The notes beneath the pieces were generated by a model. That model did not search any database, had not been told where the DNA came from, and worked only from the letters and a program-made list of their open reading frames with translations. From Rickettsiales bacterium (GTDB lineage: Bacteria; Pseudomonadota; Alphaproteobacteria; Rickettsiales; JALZUV01): 34,585 nt of DNA. A program made the translations under genes and the position numbers. The DNA lies in the NCBI GenBank assembly GCA_029252805.1, contig JAQXAR010000051.1:1-34585 (forward strand). The letters run 5' to 3'. This document shows positions 6,394-13,588 of the stretch, one piece after another. Positions within the stretch are counted from its first letter, which is position 1. Each line of letters opens with the position of its first letter.

Positions 6394-8104
6394 ATCCCAA
6401 CCCCGCTAGATTCTTTTTGATTTCCCCTTCCAAGCGGTCGCTCTCTGTGAATTGGGTTTTGAGCTGCGCTGTGAGACGAGCCATTTTCTCGGCGAAGGGC
6501 TCTAAGTCTTCCTCCTGATCTGCTGCACCGACATAACGTCCTGGGGTGAGCACAAAATCATGCTTTTTCATATCCTCTTGGGTGGCAGACATACAGAAGC
6601 CTGCTTCATTCTCGTAGCCATCGCCCATCTGCCATGCGTGTAGCGTGTTGGCGATTTTGTTGATTTCATCTTGTGTGAAGTCACGCAACACACGGTCTTT
6701 CATAAAGCCCATGTTGCGGGCATCGATGAATAGGGTCTCGCCTTGGCGGTTGCGCTTCTTAGCATCGAGGCGCAAGCCATTAGCCTTGTCTTTCGTGAGA
6801 AACCAAATGCAGGCAGGAATTTGCGTATTGGTGAAAAGCTGCCCGGGTAGCGCAACCATACATTCGACCAAGTCTTTTTCGATTAAGTGGCCGCGAATTT
6901 CGCCTTCATTATTGGTGTTGGAGCTCATGGAGCCATTAGCGAGTAGCAGCGCCATCGAACCTTTTGGTGAAAGATGATAGAGCATGTGCTGTAGCCACGC
7001 GAAGTTGGCGTTACCTTGCGGTGGCTGGCCCGCAATATTCCAACGCGCATCGCCTTCTAGCTTGGGGTGCCACCAGTCTTTGATGTTGAATGGTGGATTA
7101 GCCATCACATAATCAGCGCGAAGGTCTGGGTGCTGATTATCGAGGAAGGTGTCGGCGTTCTTTTTGCCGAAGTTAAAATCAATGCCGCGAATCACCATAT
7201 TCATGGCGGCGAGCTTCCATGTGGTGGGGTTGGCTTCTTGGCCGTAAACAGAGATTTTCTTTTTTTGCTCCGACACTTTGTAGTGCTTTTCCTGTGAGTG
7301 TGACTCAATAAAACGATCTGTAGACACGAAGAAACCACCGGAACCCATAGCGGGATCATAGACGCGCCCATCGTAAGGCTCCAACATCTCAACAATCAGA
7401 GTTACGATGCTTTTGGGAGTGTAATATTGCCCGCCTTGTTTGCCTTCTGCTAATGCGAACTGACCGAGAAAATATTCATACACATGGCCAAGAATGTCTT
7501 TGCTATGCAGGTTGAGCTTTTGGCCCTTATATTCGGGATTGCTAAAATCCGTTTTTGAGAACACATCGCTGATAAGCCCGTATAGCGTATCGTTTTCTAG
7601 CTGGTATTGACTGATGCGGTTTAGAATGCCTTTAAGTTTTGGGTTGGTTTTTTCAATTTCATCAAGCGCATTGTCGACCAACCAAGAAACGGAGCGCAGT
7701 TTCAAATCAGAACCCGACGCGTCTTGCCATAATGTAGTGCCAATGGGCAGTGCCGCAGTTTCGCTAATGTATTTCCATCGGGCATGAGGGGGAACCCACA
7801 CCACGTTTTTCTCTTTATAATAATCGGTCAGTTCTAATTCTTCGTTGATAGCCGCTTGATATTCATCTTCGCTGTCGTAATCGTCGCGTGGTAGATGGTA
7901 GATGTTATCATCGCGGTCATCTTTGAACAATGCCACGAGGTCCCGTTGACGTTCTTCAAACGCGTCAGAGACATATTTAAGGAAAATAAGGCCGAGAACC
8001 ACATGCTTATAATTTGCCGCATCCATGCTAGAGCGCAATTTATCCGCTGATTTCCAGAGCTTGCTATCTAACTCGTTTAGGAATTCTTGTTCGAGATTAT
8101 TCAT
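6383..8104 (-). CDS. hsdM: Type I DNA methyltransferase subunit HsdM
   Basis: HsdM transfers a methyl group from S-adenosylmethionine to adenine N6, guided by HsdS. The 573-residue protein has the HsdM N-terminal helical domain (KLWKSADKLRSSMDAANYK), GQYYTP near 225-230, the AdoMet-binding DPAMGSGGFF (about 250-259) and the catalytic NPPF (336-339). The frame is open for a further 42 codons upstream, but ATG 8104 is chosen because family homology starts there and it overlaps the stop of the upstream HTH gene (ATGAATAA). This looks like the healthiest enzyme of the operon, so the locus could survive as an orphan methylase if HsdS retains any activity. Confidence 0.95.
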   Translation of the reverse strand: MNNLEQEFLNELDSKLWKSADKLRSSMDAANYKHVVLGLIFLKYVSDAFEERQRDLVALFKDDRDDNIYHLPRDDYDSEDEYQAAINEELELTDYYKEKNVVWVPPHARWKYISETAALPIGTTLWQDASGSDLKLRSVSWLVDNALDEIEKTNPKLKGILNRISQYQLENDTLYGLISDVFSKTDFSNPEYKGQKLNLHSKDILGHVYEYFLGQFALAEGKQGGQYYTPKSIVTLIVEMLEPYDGRVYDPAMGSGGFFVSTDRFIESHSQEKHYKVSEQKKKISVYGQEANPTTWKLAAMNMVIRGIDFNFGKKNADTFLDNQHPDLRADYVMANPPFNIKDWWHPKLEGDARWNIAGQPPQGNANFAWLQHMLYHLSPKGSMALLLANGSMSSNTNNEGEIRGHLIEKDLVECMVALPGQLFTNTQIPACIWFLTKDKANGLRLDAKKRNRQGETLFIDARNMGFMKDRVLRDFTQDEINKIANTLHAWQMGDGYENEAGFCMSATQEDMKKHDFVLTPGRYVGAADQEEDLEPFAEKMARLTAQLKTQFTESDRLEGEIKKNLAGLGYEL

Positions 8105-8282: not shown

Positions 8283-8298
8283 CTGCCCCTCTTTTGCA

Positions 8299-8325
8299 AT
8301 TATCATTTGAGAAAATAGTGATAAT
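8299..8325. promoter_or_regulatory. Inverted repeat between the divergent RM operon and alkB
   Basis: ATTATCA (8299-8305) is mirrored by TGATAAT (8319-8325), perfect 7-bp arms 13 bp apart, 17 bp upstream of the HTH/hsdM operon start and in front of alkB. A related TGATTATCA follows near 8340. This is a plausible operator for the HTH protein. No clear -35/-10 pair could be assigned. Confidence 0.4.
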
Positions 8326-8377
8326 ATTAGAAAATGTCGATGATTATCAGATATTTTTTGGTCGAAGAAAGTTAACA

Positions 8378-8989
8378 GTGCACACACAACAGACTCAACC
8401 CAGCTTATTTGAAGAGGATGCTCAGAAAGTGCTGCCTGATGGATTGCGCTATATCCCCAACTTCATCACCCCAGCTGAAGAATCCACCCTTCTCAATAAC
8501 ATCGACCAGCAGCCATGGCTCAATGATCTGAAACGGCGCGTGCAGCATTATGGTTGGAAGTATGATTATACCGCTCGGCGTGTGGACAGCACGATGCGGC
8601 TGGGGCTGTTACCGAATTGGCTGATGGATTATTGCCGCCGATTATACGATGAAGAGCATTTCCCCAAATTACCCGATCAGGTGATTATCAATGAATATGA
8701 GCCTGGTCAGGGCATTGCGTCACATATCGACTGCGTGCTGTGCTTTGAAGAAACCATTGCTGCACTGAGCCTGGGTTCGTCCTGTGTAATGGAATTCACC
8801 AACCCAGATACTAGTGAGAAAGTTGCCCATATGTTGGAACCGCGCAGTCTGCTTATCTCCTCAGGCAATGCCCGTTATCAATGGAAGCACGGGATTACAG
8901 CTCGTAAGACAGATAAACATGAAGGCCAAACTATCCAGCGCAGCAGACGTATTTCTCTGACGTTTCGGAATGTGATTATCAATTCATAA
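8378..8989 (+). CDS. alkB: AlkB-type 2-oxoglutarate/Fe(II) oxygenase (alkylated nucleic acid repair)
   Basis: AlkB-family enzymes oxidatively remove methyl lesions from DNA or RNA bases using Fe(II) and 2-oxoglutarate. From the GTG start, the iron ligands are H116 and D118 (SHIDCV) and H171 (WKHGI), and the 2-oxoglutarate clamp is R191/R197 (RRISLTFR). The substrate-side loop NEYEPGQGI is present and the family length (~200 residues) is complete. The frame is open from ATG 8294, but the 28 extra residues have no family character and would cover the promoter region, so GTG 8378 (upstream GAAGAAAG) is favoured. It is divergent from the RM operon and probably island cargo. Confidence 0.88.
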   Translation: MHTQQTQPSLFEEDAQKVLPDGLRYIPNFITPAEESTLLNNIDQQPWLNDLKRRVQHYGWKYDYTARRVDSTMRLGLLPNWLMDYCRRLYDEEHFPKLPDQVIINEYEPGQGIASHIDCVLCFEETIAALSLGSSCVMEFTNPDTSEKVAHMLEPRSLLISSGNARYQWKHGITARKTDKHEGQTIQRSRRISLTFRNVIINS

Positions 8990-8998
8990 TCAATATCC

Positions 8999-9153
8999 GT
9001 CACATCGTGTCACGCTTCGTCACTTCGCGTCACATCATGTAACAGCGCGAAATATTTTGTAACGCGATGTAACAGGATGTAACGGCAAGTAACGCGATGA
9101 AACATTTTGCAACGGCATGCAACGCCGTGCAACAGATTGCAACACGATGCAGC
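8999..9153. repeat. 16-unit pentamer array in exact 10-bp phase
   Basis: A 5-base core recurs every 10 bp with variable 5-base spacers. From 8999 the cores are GTCAC four times, GTAAC, GAAAT, GTAAC four times, GAAAC, GCAAC four times and GCAGC. Variants are grouped, as if produced by local expansion. There is no coding explanation: several frames are interrupted. The spacing puts every core on one face of the helix, as expected for cooperative protein binding (iteron-like) or for bending. It is not a CRISPR, since units and spacers are far too short. Confidence 0.85.
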
Positions 9154-9175
9154 GTTTTTGTGCATACACCTTTCC

Positions 9176-9343
9176 AAACGAAATGCCCCCACATATCCCC
9201 ATTTCGTTTTCTCAAGCCCTAACTCTTTGATTTATCAATAACTTGATACCAAGAAAACGAAACGAAATGGTTTTTCTGGAAATGTGCCTAGTAAAACCCC
9301 GCGCCCTCGGCGTACCCGTAGGGGGGGGCCACGGGAGTACCTT
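9176..9343. repeat. Inverted and direct copies of AAACGAAATG plus a GC-rich imperfect palindrome
   Basis: AAACGAAATG (9176-9185) faces its reverse complement CATTTCGTTT (9200-9209) across a C-rich 14-base loop, and a third copy in direct orientation lies at 9260-9269. Further on (about 9310-9343) GTACCCGT and ACGGGAGTAC flank an eight-G run, forming an imperfect inverted repeat. No gene was found between alkB and the arsenite exporter, so this 370-base gap is purely repeat or regulatory sequence. Confidence 0.55.
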
Positions 9344-9361: not shown

Positions 9362-10400
9362 TTAGGCAGGGAATTTGTGTCTCGTTCTATTAGCAAACGC
9401 CACCAGCGAGAGCATCACCGGCACTTCGACTAGAACGCCGACCACCGTGGCGAGCGCTGCGCCGGAATGTAATCCAAATAAACTGATAGCAACTGCCACG
9501 GCCAGCTCGAAGAAGTTGGACGTACCGATCAGTGCAGCAGGTGCAGCGGTGGAAAATTGTACGCGCCAGAGATATGCCCATGCGTAAGCGATAAAGAATA
9601 TGCCGTAACTTTGAATGAGTAACGGCACCGCTATCAGGCAAATCACCAGCGGTTTATCGATGATGGTCTGTGCTTGGAAGCCAAATAGCAGCACAACAGT
9701 TGCCAGCAATCCCATGATCGAGAATGGCTTTACTTTGGCGGTGAAGCGTTCAATGCGCTCATGGCTGCTGTTCCTGTCCAGTCTGCGGCGTGTGGCGTAT
9801 CCGGCAGCCAGCGGGATCACGACATAGAGGATAACGGAAAGCAGCAGGGTTTCCCATGGCACGACGATATCGGTCACGCCGAGCAGGAAGGCAGCCAACG
9901 GCGCGAAGGCAAAGATCATAATGATGTCGTTAATCGATACCTGTACCAGCGTGTAGTTGGCATCGCCGCGCACCAGCTGGCTCCAGACGAATACCATCGC
10001 GGTGCAGGGTGCAACGCCGAGCAGAATCATCCCTGCGATATATTCCTTGGCAGTTTCGGGCGCGATCAACCCAGCAAACACATGCTCGAAAAAGAGTACA
10101 CCGAGTGCCGCCATCGTAAAGGGCTTCACGAGCCAGTTCACCACCAGCGTAATGCACAGTCCTTTGGGTTTGCGGCCAACGTCCTTGATACTGGCAAAAT
10201 CAACATTGACCATCATAGGGTAAATCATCACCCAGATAAACACCGCCACAACAAGATTCACCTTGGCATATTCCAGTTCGGCGATCATCTGGAAAATAGA
10301 AGGCACCGCAATGCCCAGCCCAACACCTGCGCCGATGCTTAGCCCCACCCAGAGGGATAAATAACGTTCAAAAAAAACCGAGTGGTGAGTGTTCTTTCAT
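9362..10400 (-). CDS. acr3: ACR3-type arsenite efflux permease, frameshifted near its start
   Basis: ACR3 (also called arsB/arsB3) permeases export As(III) across the inner membrane. About ten hydrophobic segments are visible, with family blocks [31 protein letters not shown] (the conserved thiol-binding Cys) and [18 protein letters not shown]. The uninterrupted frame runs 9362-10348. The family N-terminus (GFF, then [11 protein letters not shown]) is encoded just upstream starting at ATG 10400, but a run of eight T (10370-10377 on the complement) shifts the frame; seven would restore it. A GTG at 10348 could give a protein missing only ~18 residues. No arsR or arsC is present in the window. 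Confidence 0.88.
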
Positions 10401-10496: not shown

Positions 10497-10565
10497 TTAT
10501 CCACAGTTTTAGCTCTCTCTATTAAAGAGTAGTTCTAGTTTTAGTTATGGGTCTAGTTCTAGCTG
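10497..10565. promoter_or_regulatory. Consensus DnaA box and hexamer repeats (possible replication origin)
   Basis: TTATCCACA at 10497-10505 is a perfect consensus DnaA box. From 10530 to 10565 hexamers run in register: TAGTTC, TAGTTT, TAGTTA, TGGGTC, TAGTTC, TAGCTG, overlapping the 3' end of the DUF1376 gene. A second TTATCCACA lies inside that gene at 10889-10897. Next to a replication-type gene this could be the origin of an integrated plasmid or satellite; a single non-coding box is weak evidence by itself. Confidence 0.4.
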
Positions 10566-11003
10566 GTCGAGTACGTCGCTTATATGTCGCCCTGAGCCGT
10601 TGGTGCGCCGCCTTGCTCCACCGACAGCGCCATCTTTCGCTACAGCGTTCGCTTGAGTGCTTTTCCAGTTTTCTGCCGTTTTACGTCCACCTTTGCCGCC
10701 ATTTTGTGCGTTGATTGCGCTCTTTTTAATCGCACTTTGATAGTCTTTTTGTAGTCGTTTTTGTGTGATAACGCCTTCATAAATGAGCAAGTAGTCACTC
10801 AATCGAACCTTGATTTTCTGCCATTTTTTCACCGGAATACGCAGCAATCGTGCAACGTCTTTATCGTTGTCCGGCAGGTGACCACCTTTTATCCACAGGT
10901 GATCCATCAGCAGGCGATACGCCCCTTGCTCCTCCAGCGTCAGCGTGCCGGTGTCGGAAATATGCGCATCAAGATACCATTGCTGCATCGGAATTTTGCC
11001 CAT
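10545..11003 (-). CDS. DUF1376-type (YdaU-like) phage/plasmid replication-associated protein
   Basis: The 152-residue product begins MQQWYLDAHISDTGTLTLEE and continues with GAYRLLMDHLWIKGGHLPDN, DVARLLRIPVKKWQKIK and GVITQKRLQKDY, the DUF1376 domain of prophage replication modules. That domain is thought to resemble winged-helix initiators. The Gly/Lys/Arg-rich C-terminus (KNGG-like, residues ~100-140) looks disordered and could bind DNA. Its ATG lies 2 bases after the stop of the upstream HTH gene, so the two form an operon. Confidence 0.8.
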   Translation of the reverse strand: MGKIPMQQWYLDAHISDTGTLTLEEQGAYRLLMDHLWIKGGHLPDNDKDVARLLRIPVKKWQKIKVRLSDYLLIYEGVITQKRLQKDYQSAIKKSAINAQNGGKGGRKTAENWKSTQANAVAKDGAVGGARRRTNGSGRHISDVLDQLELDP

Positions 11004-12091: not shown

Positions 12092-13275
12092 GCATGCTCC
12101 GCTTCGTTCTTTTTGGCGGCGAGGAAGAGTGCTTCGGTGGCGCTTTGCACTGATTGGCGGACGGGTTCCAGCGTGAGTCGCTCATAGATGGCGGTGGATT
12201 ACTGGCTTTTATGGCCGAGCGATTTGCCGATAATCGCGGTGCTAGTGCCCTGTAATGCCTGCCAGCTACCGAGTGTACGGCGCAGATCATGGATGCGTAG
12301 GTTTTCAATCTCTGCCACTTCGAGCAGGCGATACCATGCTTTCTTCGGGTCGGCCAAATGCCCATCCACACCATCGCCAGGGAAAACATAATGTGATTCT
12401 TGTTCCGTCAGCTCCTGCACCTTTTTGCGTTTTTGCAGCATCTCCATCGCCTGTGGCGAGAGCGGTACGTTGTGCGGATCGCCATTTTTGGTATCAGGAA
12501 TGCGCCAGATTTTATGCTCCATATTGATGTCCTTCCAGCGCATGGCCAGCACATTGCCCTTGCGGGCACCGGTGAGCAGCGCCATCAGGATGAAATCACG
12601 CGCGGTGATATTTTCCTCTTTTGCTAGCGCATCAAAAAAACGAGCGACTTCTTCCGGCAGCAGAAAACGGTCACGCGATTGCTCACGGAACTTCTTCACG
12701 CCGAGGGCGGGGTTACGTCCATCCCAGCCCCATTCAATGGCTTTGTTGTAGATCGCTCGCACGCGCTCTAAAATTCGGTTCGCCTGATAACGTCCGCTGG
12801 TTTCGCCCAAGTCAGTGTGTAGCTTGTGCACATCTTCATTGGTGATGCGCGAAATTTTGCGATTAAACCAATGTGATAAATGCTTGTTCACCTCGCGTTC
12901 GTCGTATTTCCAGGAGCGTTTGTATTTTTTGCTGTAGCGCTCCATGTAGAGCTCGAACAATTTGGCGAAGGTCATCTCGTCGCGGATGGCGCGTTTCTCT
13001 GCCTGCGGGTTTTTGCCCATGGCGATGCTGCCTTTGGTTTTTGCGGCCAGCTTTCGGGCATTCTCAATGCTGAGGTCAGGATAGCGCCCTAGCGTGATGC
13101 GCTCATCTGCGCCGTCAATACGTTTGCGCACGAAGAAGGTTTTGCTTCCGGCCCGCGTGACGGAAACTGATAGCCCTGTTTCCTTAGTATCACGGTAATA
13201 GGCCCGCACCGATTTGGTGGGCGCAGGCAACGCCTCAATGTTCTTTTTCGTGAAGTTGATTTCTTTGCCTGCCAT
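12088..13275 (-). pseudogene. int: Tyrosine integrase with a nonsense codon before the catalytic Tyr
   Basis: This is a phage/satellite-type integrase with the N-terminal DUF4102-like domain (KNIEALPAPTKSVRAYYRDT, then GLSVSVTRAGSKTFFVRK), a SAM-like core-binding domain (TFAKLFELYMERYSKKYK) and a catalytic domain with TGARKGNVLAMRW (first Arg), HDLRRTLGSW (His, Arg) and GKSLGHKS (His). At 12199-12201 a TAA replaces what should be a Gln codon after GHKSQ. Past it, the same frame continues STAIYERLTLEPVRQSVQSA to a stop at 12088, including the expected nucleophile Tyr in AIYERL. Without readthrough the enzyme lacks its nucleophile. ATG 13275 is preferred over the GTG/ATG choices upstream because MAGKEINFTKKN starts the family homology. 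Confidence 0.88.
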
Positions 13276-13588
13276 TTTCTTGATAAATACCCGTGTAATT
13301 TGGTGTAATGTCATACACATGAAGCAATAGAAAAAGGCAGAAGTAAACTTCTAAAGTGTTCGAACATTCAATGGGTTGAAATGGCTGGGAATTATGGAAA
13401 CCTTCTGTGGGGCATAGGAAAAAATAATACTAATCCTATCAAAAATGATCCTTAATCCTATCGCGGATAATAGAATTAGATGCTTAGCGTGGAAGGATTC
13501 ACGCTTCACTCAACTCTTGCACCAATGGTTATTATAATATACAATAGAGCTATATATGATTATAATAATAACCATTAAGCCTTATTAA
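13276..13588. promoter_or_regulatory. Divergent int/hipBA control region with a large palindrome
   Basis: This 313-base gap has no gene. TAATCCTATC occurs twice (13431-13440, 13453-13462). AATGGTTATTATAAT (13524-13538) is mirrored by ATTATAATAATAACCATT (13559-13576), an A/T-rich palindrome ending 12 bp before hipB. HipB-type antitoxins autoregulate through such operators, so this is the likely hipBA operator. Confidence 0.6.

Follow-up and report, generated by a model that had tools for sequence, protein, structure and literature searches.

The O gene of phage lambda holds its own iterons mid-gene, followed by an A-rich tract, and the N-terminal domain of its product binds those iterons (PMC5043065, PMC7466680); the sites are four 19-bp inverted-repeat iterons bound by dimers. 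Extra phage origin sites away from the phage genome have been described as ectopic origins and as PER (PMC4488673, PMC6356513), and they are the origin of a single phage carried on laboratory plasmids or prophage pieces. The PICI, PLE, and PICMI elements combine an integrase, an HTH regulator, and a replication gene with a 3' origin (PMC6092414, PMC8263062, PMC10803314) and are described as using their own origin and their own initiator; in PLE, RepA and the origin are reported to covary under phage pressure (PMC8263062). Iteron plasmid origins hold helically phased direct repeats with DnaA boxes nearby (PMC5043065).

The array analysed here lies in a 34,585-nucleotide stretch of a Rickettsiales genome (contig JAQXAR010000051.1; hereafter the window). 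As in lambda, the phage initiator genes of this order carry repeats mid-gene with an A-rich tract after them, but the units are 10-bp direct repeats, and the window array stands outside any initiator gene and mixes types. As with the ectopic lambda origins and PER, these would be extra phage origin sites away from a phage genome, but in a natural composite of three specificities. The island that carries the array, the ends of which island were not found here, has an integrase, an HTH regulator, and a likely replication gene, as do PICI, PLE, and PICMI. Phased repeats near DnaA boxes are shared with iteron plasmids, but each island unit measures only 10 bp, less than in those plasmids, and the blocks differ in type. 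An earlier note, made from the letters of the window alone, held that no known feature type explains the array; it does match the iterons of lambda-O-like phage initiators. We propose that the non-coding array probably consists of iterons for lambda-O-like initiators of three specificities, by which the island would capture phage initiators. A search of the open-licence literature, with subscription papers outside its scope, turned up neither composite phage-iteron arrays on islands nor the relation between initiator residue and pentamer reported below.

Composition of the window array

By direct reading, the array comprises 16 units with starts at 8999, 9009, and so on to 9149, spaced exactly 10 bp apart and spanning 8999-9158. 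Thirteen of the 16 are exact pentamers, namely GTCAC (4), GTAAC (5), and GCAAC (4), and the others are in-register near-variants: GAAAT at 9049, GAAAC at 9099, and GCAGC at 9149. The earlier count of sixteen pentamers thus stands for units in register, with three of them being near-matches. On the forward strand, the blocks run from four GTCAC units (8999-9038), the type of initiators with ER-A or ER-K (motif below), through seven GTAAC-like units that include GAAAT and GAAAC (9039-9108; ER-V type), to five GCAAC-like units of which the last is GCAGC (9109-9158; ER-S type), with variable spacers throughout. The pattern GHMAC-N5 repeated four times has eight matches in the window, all within the array, and none in each of 100 dinucleotide shuffles. 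The strict 10-bp register, variant-grouped blocks, and varied spacers first noticed in the earlier reading are confirmed. Three or fewer runs arise under shuffling of the unit order with p of about 5e-5. Tandem Repeats Finder picks up the array in parts only.

An AlkB-like gene (8294-8989; Pfam 2OG-FeII_Oxy_2) precedes the array, which begins 10 bp past its stop codon. All six reading frames are interrupted by one or more stops within the array, and none is open through it. In phage relatives the repeats lie within the initiator gene, as in lambda O, and in the window they do not. The A+T content beside the array is 61% against 54% across the window, and the A-rich tract typical 3' of phage arrays was not seen there. 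A BLAST search of the array against plasmid and phage collections returned no match. A short match on contig C37 of the window's own genome, considered as a second copy, proved to be a chromosomal place with DnaA boxes and no array; short matches in G013 (C4) and G035 (C28) are coding sequence and not arrays, and two further short matches fell in G081 and G117. No O-like gene was found in the window's own genome, where the only match is DnaA-like.

The island carrying the array

The gene content of the window's left 13.4 kb is that of an integrative island: an integrase, two HTH_17 proteins, DUF1376, type I restriction genes, the AlkB-like gene, and an ACR3-type transporter. The tyrosine integrase (12199-13320, minus strand) has Phage_integrase and Arm-DNA-bind_3 domains. 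The DUF1376 or primosomal-type protein of 152 amino acids (10545-11003, minus strand) is the likely island replication protein; one DnaA box, TTATCCACA, lies 3' of its gene (10497-10505, plus strand) and a second, TTATCCACA, within it (10889-10897, plus strand). CATTTCG/CGAAATG boxes, common to related islands, occur at 9179, 9200, and 9263 (9179-9269, no strand assigned), and the ACR3/SBF-family transporter gene (9362-10348, minus strand) stands between the array and the DUF1376/DnaA-box side.

As in PICI-like elements, an integrase and an HTH_17 regulator are present and a full phage structural set is absent; no capsid or terminase family was found among the 30 window proteins scanned with Pfam. 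No convincing att repeats were found for the island, the left end of which lies beyond the contig. The HTH proteins encoded at 8097 and 11006, which the earlier note had named as candidates to test for binding, are of the excisionase-like HTH_17 type; nothing was found that links them to the array, and they are not the best candidates. At the island edge, the protein at 638-1855 has a C-terminal Prim-Pol match with a weak SIR2_2 match ahead of it.

Arrays within O-like initiator genes

The earlier note had proposed looking for such arrays in other genomes, and they were found in O-like initiator genes and in five related islands. A DNA query spanning the window array matched eight of 55 relatives, the window's genome counted in; the match in L006 is to the AlkB-like gene only, and the six other matched relatives carry arrays. 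In L011, L012, and L015, the array lies within a gene matching the PHROG family 'replication initiation O-like' (E 2e-17, 4e-13, and 4e-18). All three initiators have a C-terminal DnaA_N domain, and Phage_rep_org_N scores above cut-off in L015 only. In L014, the array is within a DUF3489 gene. When a five-row initiator alignment was searched against the 343 genomes of the order, 22 of them yielded a total of 27 matches below E 1e-100, with the remaining matches mostly to the C-terminal, DnaA-like part of the initiator. Across the phylum, phrog_3729 matched C-terminal parts alone, and these matches were left out of the analysis; searches for related loci with A1 and L085 gave few, and a Tritos initiator search gave 80 near-identical loci, one of which was taken into the fold alignment. 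Many of the genomes searched are incomplete.

Two sets of genes were compiled. In the first (n = 28), 26 initiator genes were picked regardless of array; from outside the order search, L033 (viral contig) and L152 (genome contig) were found by array pattern and L319 came from a class search. In all 28, the array lies in the linker that follows the winged helix. For the second set, taken from viral contigs, the sole criterion was the protein motif W[ED]KRQPxRED, which yielded 92 stretches; 80 of these were analysed and 71 distinct genes kept, and most of these motif-chosen genes also have the array. When synonymous codons were permuted, counting each gene's own observed pentamers (which somewhat favours the observed value), the units in register fell from 6.21 to 1.50 in the first set, with p of 0.05 or less in 28 of 28 genes. 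In the second set they fell from 3.67 to 1.14 among the 61 of 71 genes with at least three units, 59 of them at p of 0.05 or less. Because synonymous permutation lowers the number of units in register, the 10-bp register is held at the level of the DNA.

An A-rich CAGATA tract follows the phage arrays on the 3' side. In the predicted fold of the L290 initiator, the winged helix is confident (block means 79-93), the linker encoded by the array is disordered, and a helix over the ER-X stretch is predicted with low confidence (about 55). The C-terminal domain of L290 is similar to DnaA domain I (best Foldseek E 1.8e-3), and the DnaA_N (DnaA domain I) module at the end of the order's O-like initiators, the C-terminal ~65 residues in L011, L012, and L015, is likely a captured helicase-recruiting domain. 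We take the in-gene phage arrays to be probable initiator-binding iterons and putative origins.

One initiator residue tracks the pentamer

Directly before the array, the initiators carry the motif [ST]xER-X-xx-y-R, and a map from residue to pentamer fits 94 of 99 genes, with the classes drawn after seeing the data and related genes not being independent. Valine at X goes with GTAAC/GAAAC (19 of 20), and serine, where y is not tryptophan, with GCAAC (13/13). Alanine goes with GTCAC where y is tyrosine or alanine (3/3) and with CGAAC where y is tryptophan (20/20); CGAAC is also the pentamer for glycine (4/4). Lysine pairs with GTCAC where y is glutamine (15/16) and with GGAAC where y is tryptophan (4/4), and GTGAC accompanies threonine (7/7) and methionine (six of eight). 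Single cases are glutamine (GTCAC), leucine (GTAAC), serine with tryptophan (CGAAC), and lysine with tyrosine (none). Mutual information between residue class and pentamer is 2.38 bits, and the maximum over 2000 permutations was 0.74.

Initiators with winged-helix domains 97% and 95% identical differ in both residue and pentamer, and among the 38 first-set pairs with winged helices at least 75% identical, 16 agree in class and type, 20 differ in both, none share a class with different types, and two differ in class label alone (A/Y vs A/A). The DNA of L289 and L291 is 91-100% identical before the anchor, 67-78% over the ER-X stretch and array, and mostly 93-100% after, a pattern of cassette exchange of the ER-X stretch together with the array. 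On the winged-helix tree, X changes at least nine times; tree-based independent pairs all point in the expected direction, at one to four per type, which is too few for significance. The earlier suggestion that selection for protein contacts on one DNA face, and not slippage, maintains the register is supported by the synonymous-codon permutation and by the pentamer's tracking of a protein residue.

In the frame where GTAAC would yield a TAA stop, GAAAC stands in for it. As a result of this replacement, V-type phage arrays have at most two consecutive GTAAC units (5/5 arrays; two or fewer in the 71 viral genes).

Arrays on related islands

None of the six island arrays (the window, L009, L010, L263, L264, and L265) is part of an initiator gene, and the blocks of a single array represent as many as three phage types. 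The arrays of L009 and L010 lie outside recognisable genes; that of L010 begins where an AbiEii gene ends, at its stop codon, and in L009 a short frame, open for about 70 codons, runs across the array. Scored by pentamer against the phage types (A, GTCAC; V, GTAAC; S, GCAAC), the window reads AAAA VVVVVVV SSSSS, L263 reads SSVS VVVV AAAAA, L264 reads SSSSVS MVVV AAAAA, L265 reads SSSVS AAAA, L010 reads VVVVV SSSSSSS, and L009 reads VSSVSSSSSS, where a lone V or M within a block of S or V stands for GAAAC or GTAGC. The longest GTAAC runs are four in the window and L263 and three in L264 and L010, against at most two in phage arrays; with runs of three to four, these four arrays are not verbatim pieces of a gene.

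Separate pieces of these arrays do match phage genes. A query with the L264 region matched 15 of 60 genomes at E 0.01, its different pieces matching different prophage initiator genes: 72-123 matched G244 (ER-S, 88%, E 1.5e-12) and G006 (ER-S), 109-161 matched G045 and G254 (ER-S), and 166-212 matched G320 (ER-A, E 2.4e-4). In five of the six islands, L009 being the exception, four-unit matches between island and phage arrays exceed those of every one of 20 spacer shuffles. For the three islands with a typable initiator gene in the same genome, types agree in G045 (S and A in both prophage and island) and G047 (prophage S, island mainly S) and disagree in G341 (prophage M, or GTGAC; island S, V, and A without GTGAC).

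Position relative to the presumed island origin

CATTTCG/CGAAATG boxes accompany all six island arrays, and DUF1376 and DnaA boxes lie near four (the window and L263-L265); DnaA boxes were not found in the L009 and L010 stretches. Among the order's 343 genomes, 26 encode window-like DUF1376 proteins, and an array was near DUF1376 in three of the 20 places fetched (34 other places were listed), namely L263, L264, and L265. In these three, the array lies within about 110 bp 3' of DUF1376, on the same strand, directly after a DnaA box and before the CATTTCG boxes. In the window, the ACR3-type gene, at a point where L263-L265 have no gene, separates the DnaA box from the CATTTCG boxes, and the array has the opposite orientation. 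Set against the PICI-like order of replication gene and then iteron origin, DUF1376 is followed by a DnaA box, with the array direct in L263-L265 and separated by the transporter gene in the window. In L262, whose DUF1376 is 64% identical to the window's, the flanks are those of array-bearing islands with the array absent between them, and it is absent at the matching place in L261 (68% identical); no array was found near either DUF1376 within the fetched 12 kb.

Proposed capture of phage initiators and alternative explanations

The 10-bp spacing would set the sites on one face of the DNA, where several initiator molecules could assemble side by side, and the array lies within the presumed origin region of the island (the DUF1376 gene, DnaA boxes, and CATTTCG boxes). 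When a phage of a matching type infects or is induced, the island would capture its initiator, and the captured protein may then fire or boost replication of the island, the most likely outcome in our estimation, if not one that we would call probable outright. Weighing against capture are the lack of an O-like gene in the searched genome of the window itself, the array-free state of L261 and L262, two of the nearest sister islands, the type mismatch in G341, and the A-rich tract not seen beside the window array. We suggest more tentatively that islands collect origin sites of the circulating phage initiator types block by block, such that several phages would replicate the island or lose initiator to it, while phages may swap a cassette of recognition helix and iterons. 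If so, one could read from the array the course of an arms race fought over replication origins, and a one-residue code would predict which phages an island can exploit. It would also be a natural case of origin capture from multiple phages, where laboratory work showed a single cloned origin only. The link from residue to DNA could be used for finding phage origins and for pairing islands with phages.

The alternative that survives best, though we consider it unlikely, is that the array merely titrates phage initiators as a decoy, weakening phage replication as a defence beside the restriction genes. Ectopic origins on a multicopy plasmid stopped lambda by competition for O (PMC4488673), and PER is a noncoding phage origin (PMC6356513); a decoy would also suit the type I restriction genes on the island and the coverage of several phage types. 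The published effect came from a multicopy plasmid, however, and a lone chromosomal copy should be weak unless the island amplifies; nor would a decoy need the presumed origin region in which the array sits. For these two reasons, hijack of the initiator for island replication is tentatively preferred over a pure decoy.

A further reading, more doubtful still, makes the array part of the replication system of the island itself, bound by DUF1376 or another island protein. The placement directly behind DUF1376 and a DnaA box in L263, L264, and L265 is what such a system would show, and the PICI origin is laid out as a rep gene and then iterons (PMC6092414). However, the DUF1376 relatives of L261 and L262 do without an array, the 20 fetched DUF1376 places yielded so few, and the array's orientation relative to DUF1376 differs between the window and L263-L265. 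Further, blocks of three specificities would be odd for one protein.

Capture of phage initiators is also far more probable than descent from a prophage initiator gene that has decayed, or than plain slippage, either of which we consider very improbable. The earlier note had allowed for a decayed coding repeat, and relatives do carry the array in coding sequence, but the window copy is a composite of three types with stops in all frames and GTAAC runs of three to four that are impossible in a gene, and no initiator remnant adjoins it; decay of one gene therefore fails as an explanation. Many perfect 10-bp tandem repeats of these pentamers occur elsewhere, and many array matches were set aside as such, but slippage is ruled out for the window array by its varied spacers and blocks. 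A packaging site (pac or cos) read by terminase is just as improbable, since the residue-pentamer relation concerns replication initiators and no terminase gene was among the window genes scanned, even with similar arrays in DUF3489-type genes near terminase genes and beside the terminase genes of E. coli satellite-like elements.

Arrays in other phages and elements

In E. coli, a family of non-coding five-unit GTCAC arrays with 10-bp spacing, read in L614 and L580, adjoins a ~94-codon gene, and the array and gene adjoin terminase genes at one end of satellite-like elements. An array at L653:14001-14901 was inferred from 99.6% identity to the L614 query, and L654:3001-3368 matched via the array region. 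These arrays may be packaging sites or may serve in initiator capture. The yifB element has the gene order of capsid-forming PICIs.

GTAAC-type arrays also occur within DUF3489-type phage genes (L113:6315-6842, L014:7834-8337, L220:5310-5867, L044, L053, L068, and L069), the Pfam-based assignment being for L014 only. Other phage open frames hold at least 44 non-tandem GTMAC arrays (e.g., L571, L583, L597, L603, L622, and L651), several of which follow a basic stretch such as SDxxRQxESRDRR, and in-gene arrays seem to be a wider habit of phage early proteins. In L018, L059, L066, L093, and their relatives, a non-coding GTAAC array of 10-bp units lies just upstream of a small CxxC...FCSxKC zinc-finger-like protein and is perhaps an operator or an origin of another kind; such arrays adjoining a small zinc-finger gene in Bacteroidetes-type phages look like a different system. 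As L113 shares its contig with the ER-V initiator gene of L152, one element carries two arrays of one type. That contig, JAJFHF010000245.1, is labelled Hyphomicrobiaceae, yet its initiator shares 89% identity with the one from a Rickettsiales bin, which may reflect a mislabelled bin or phage transfer.
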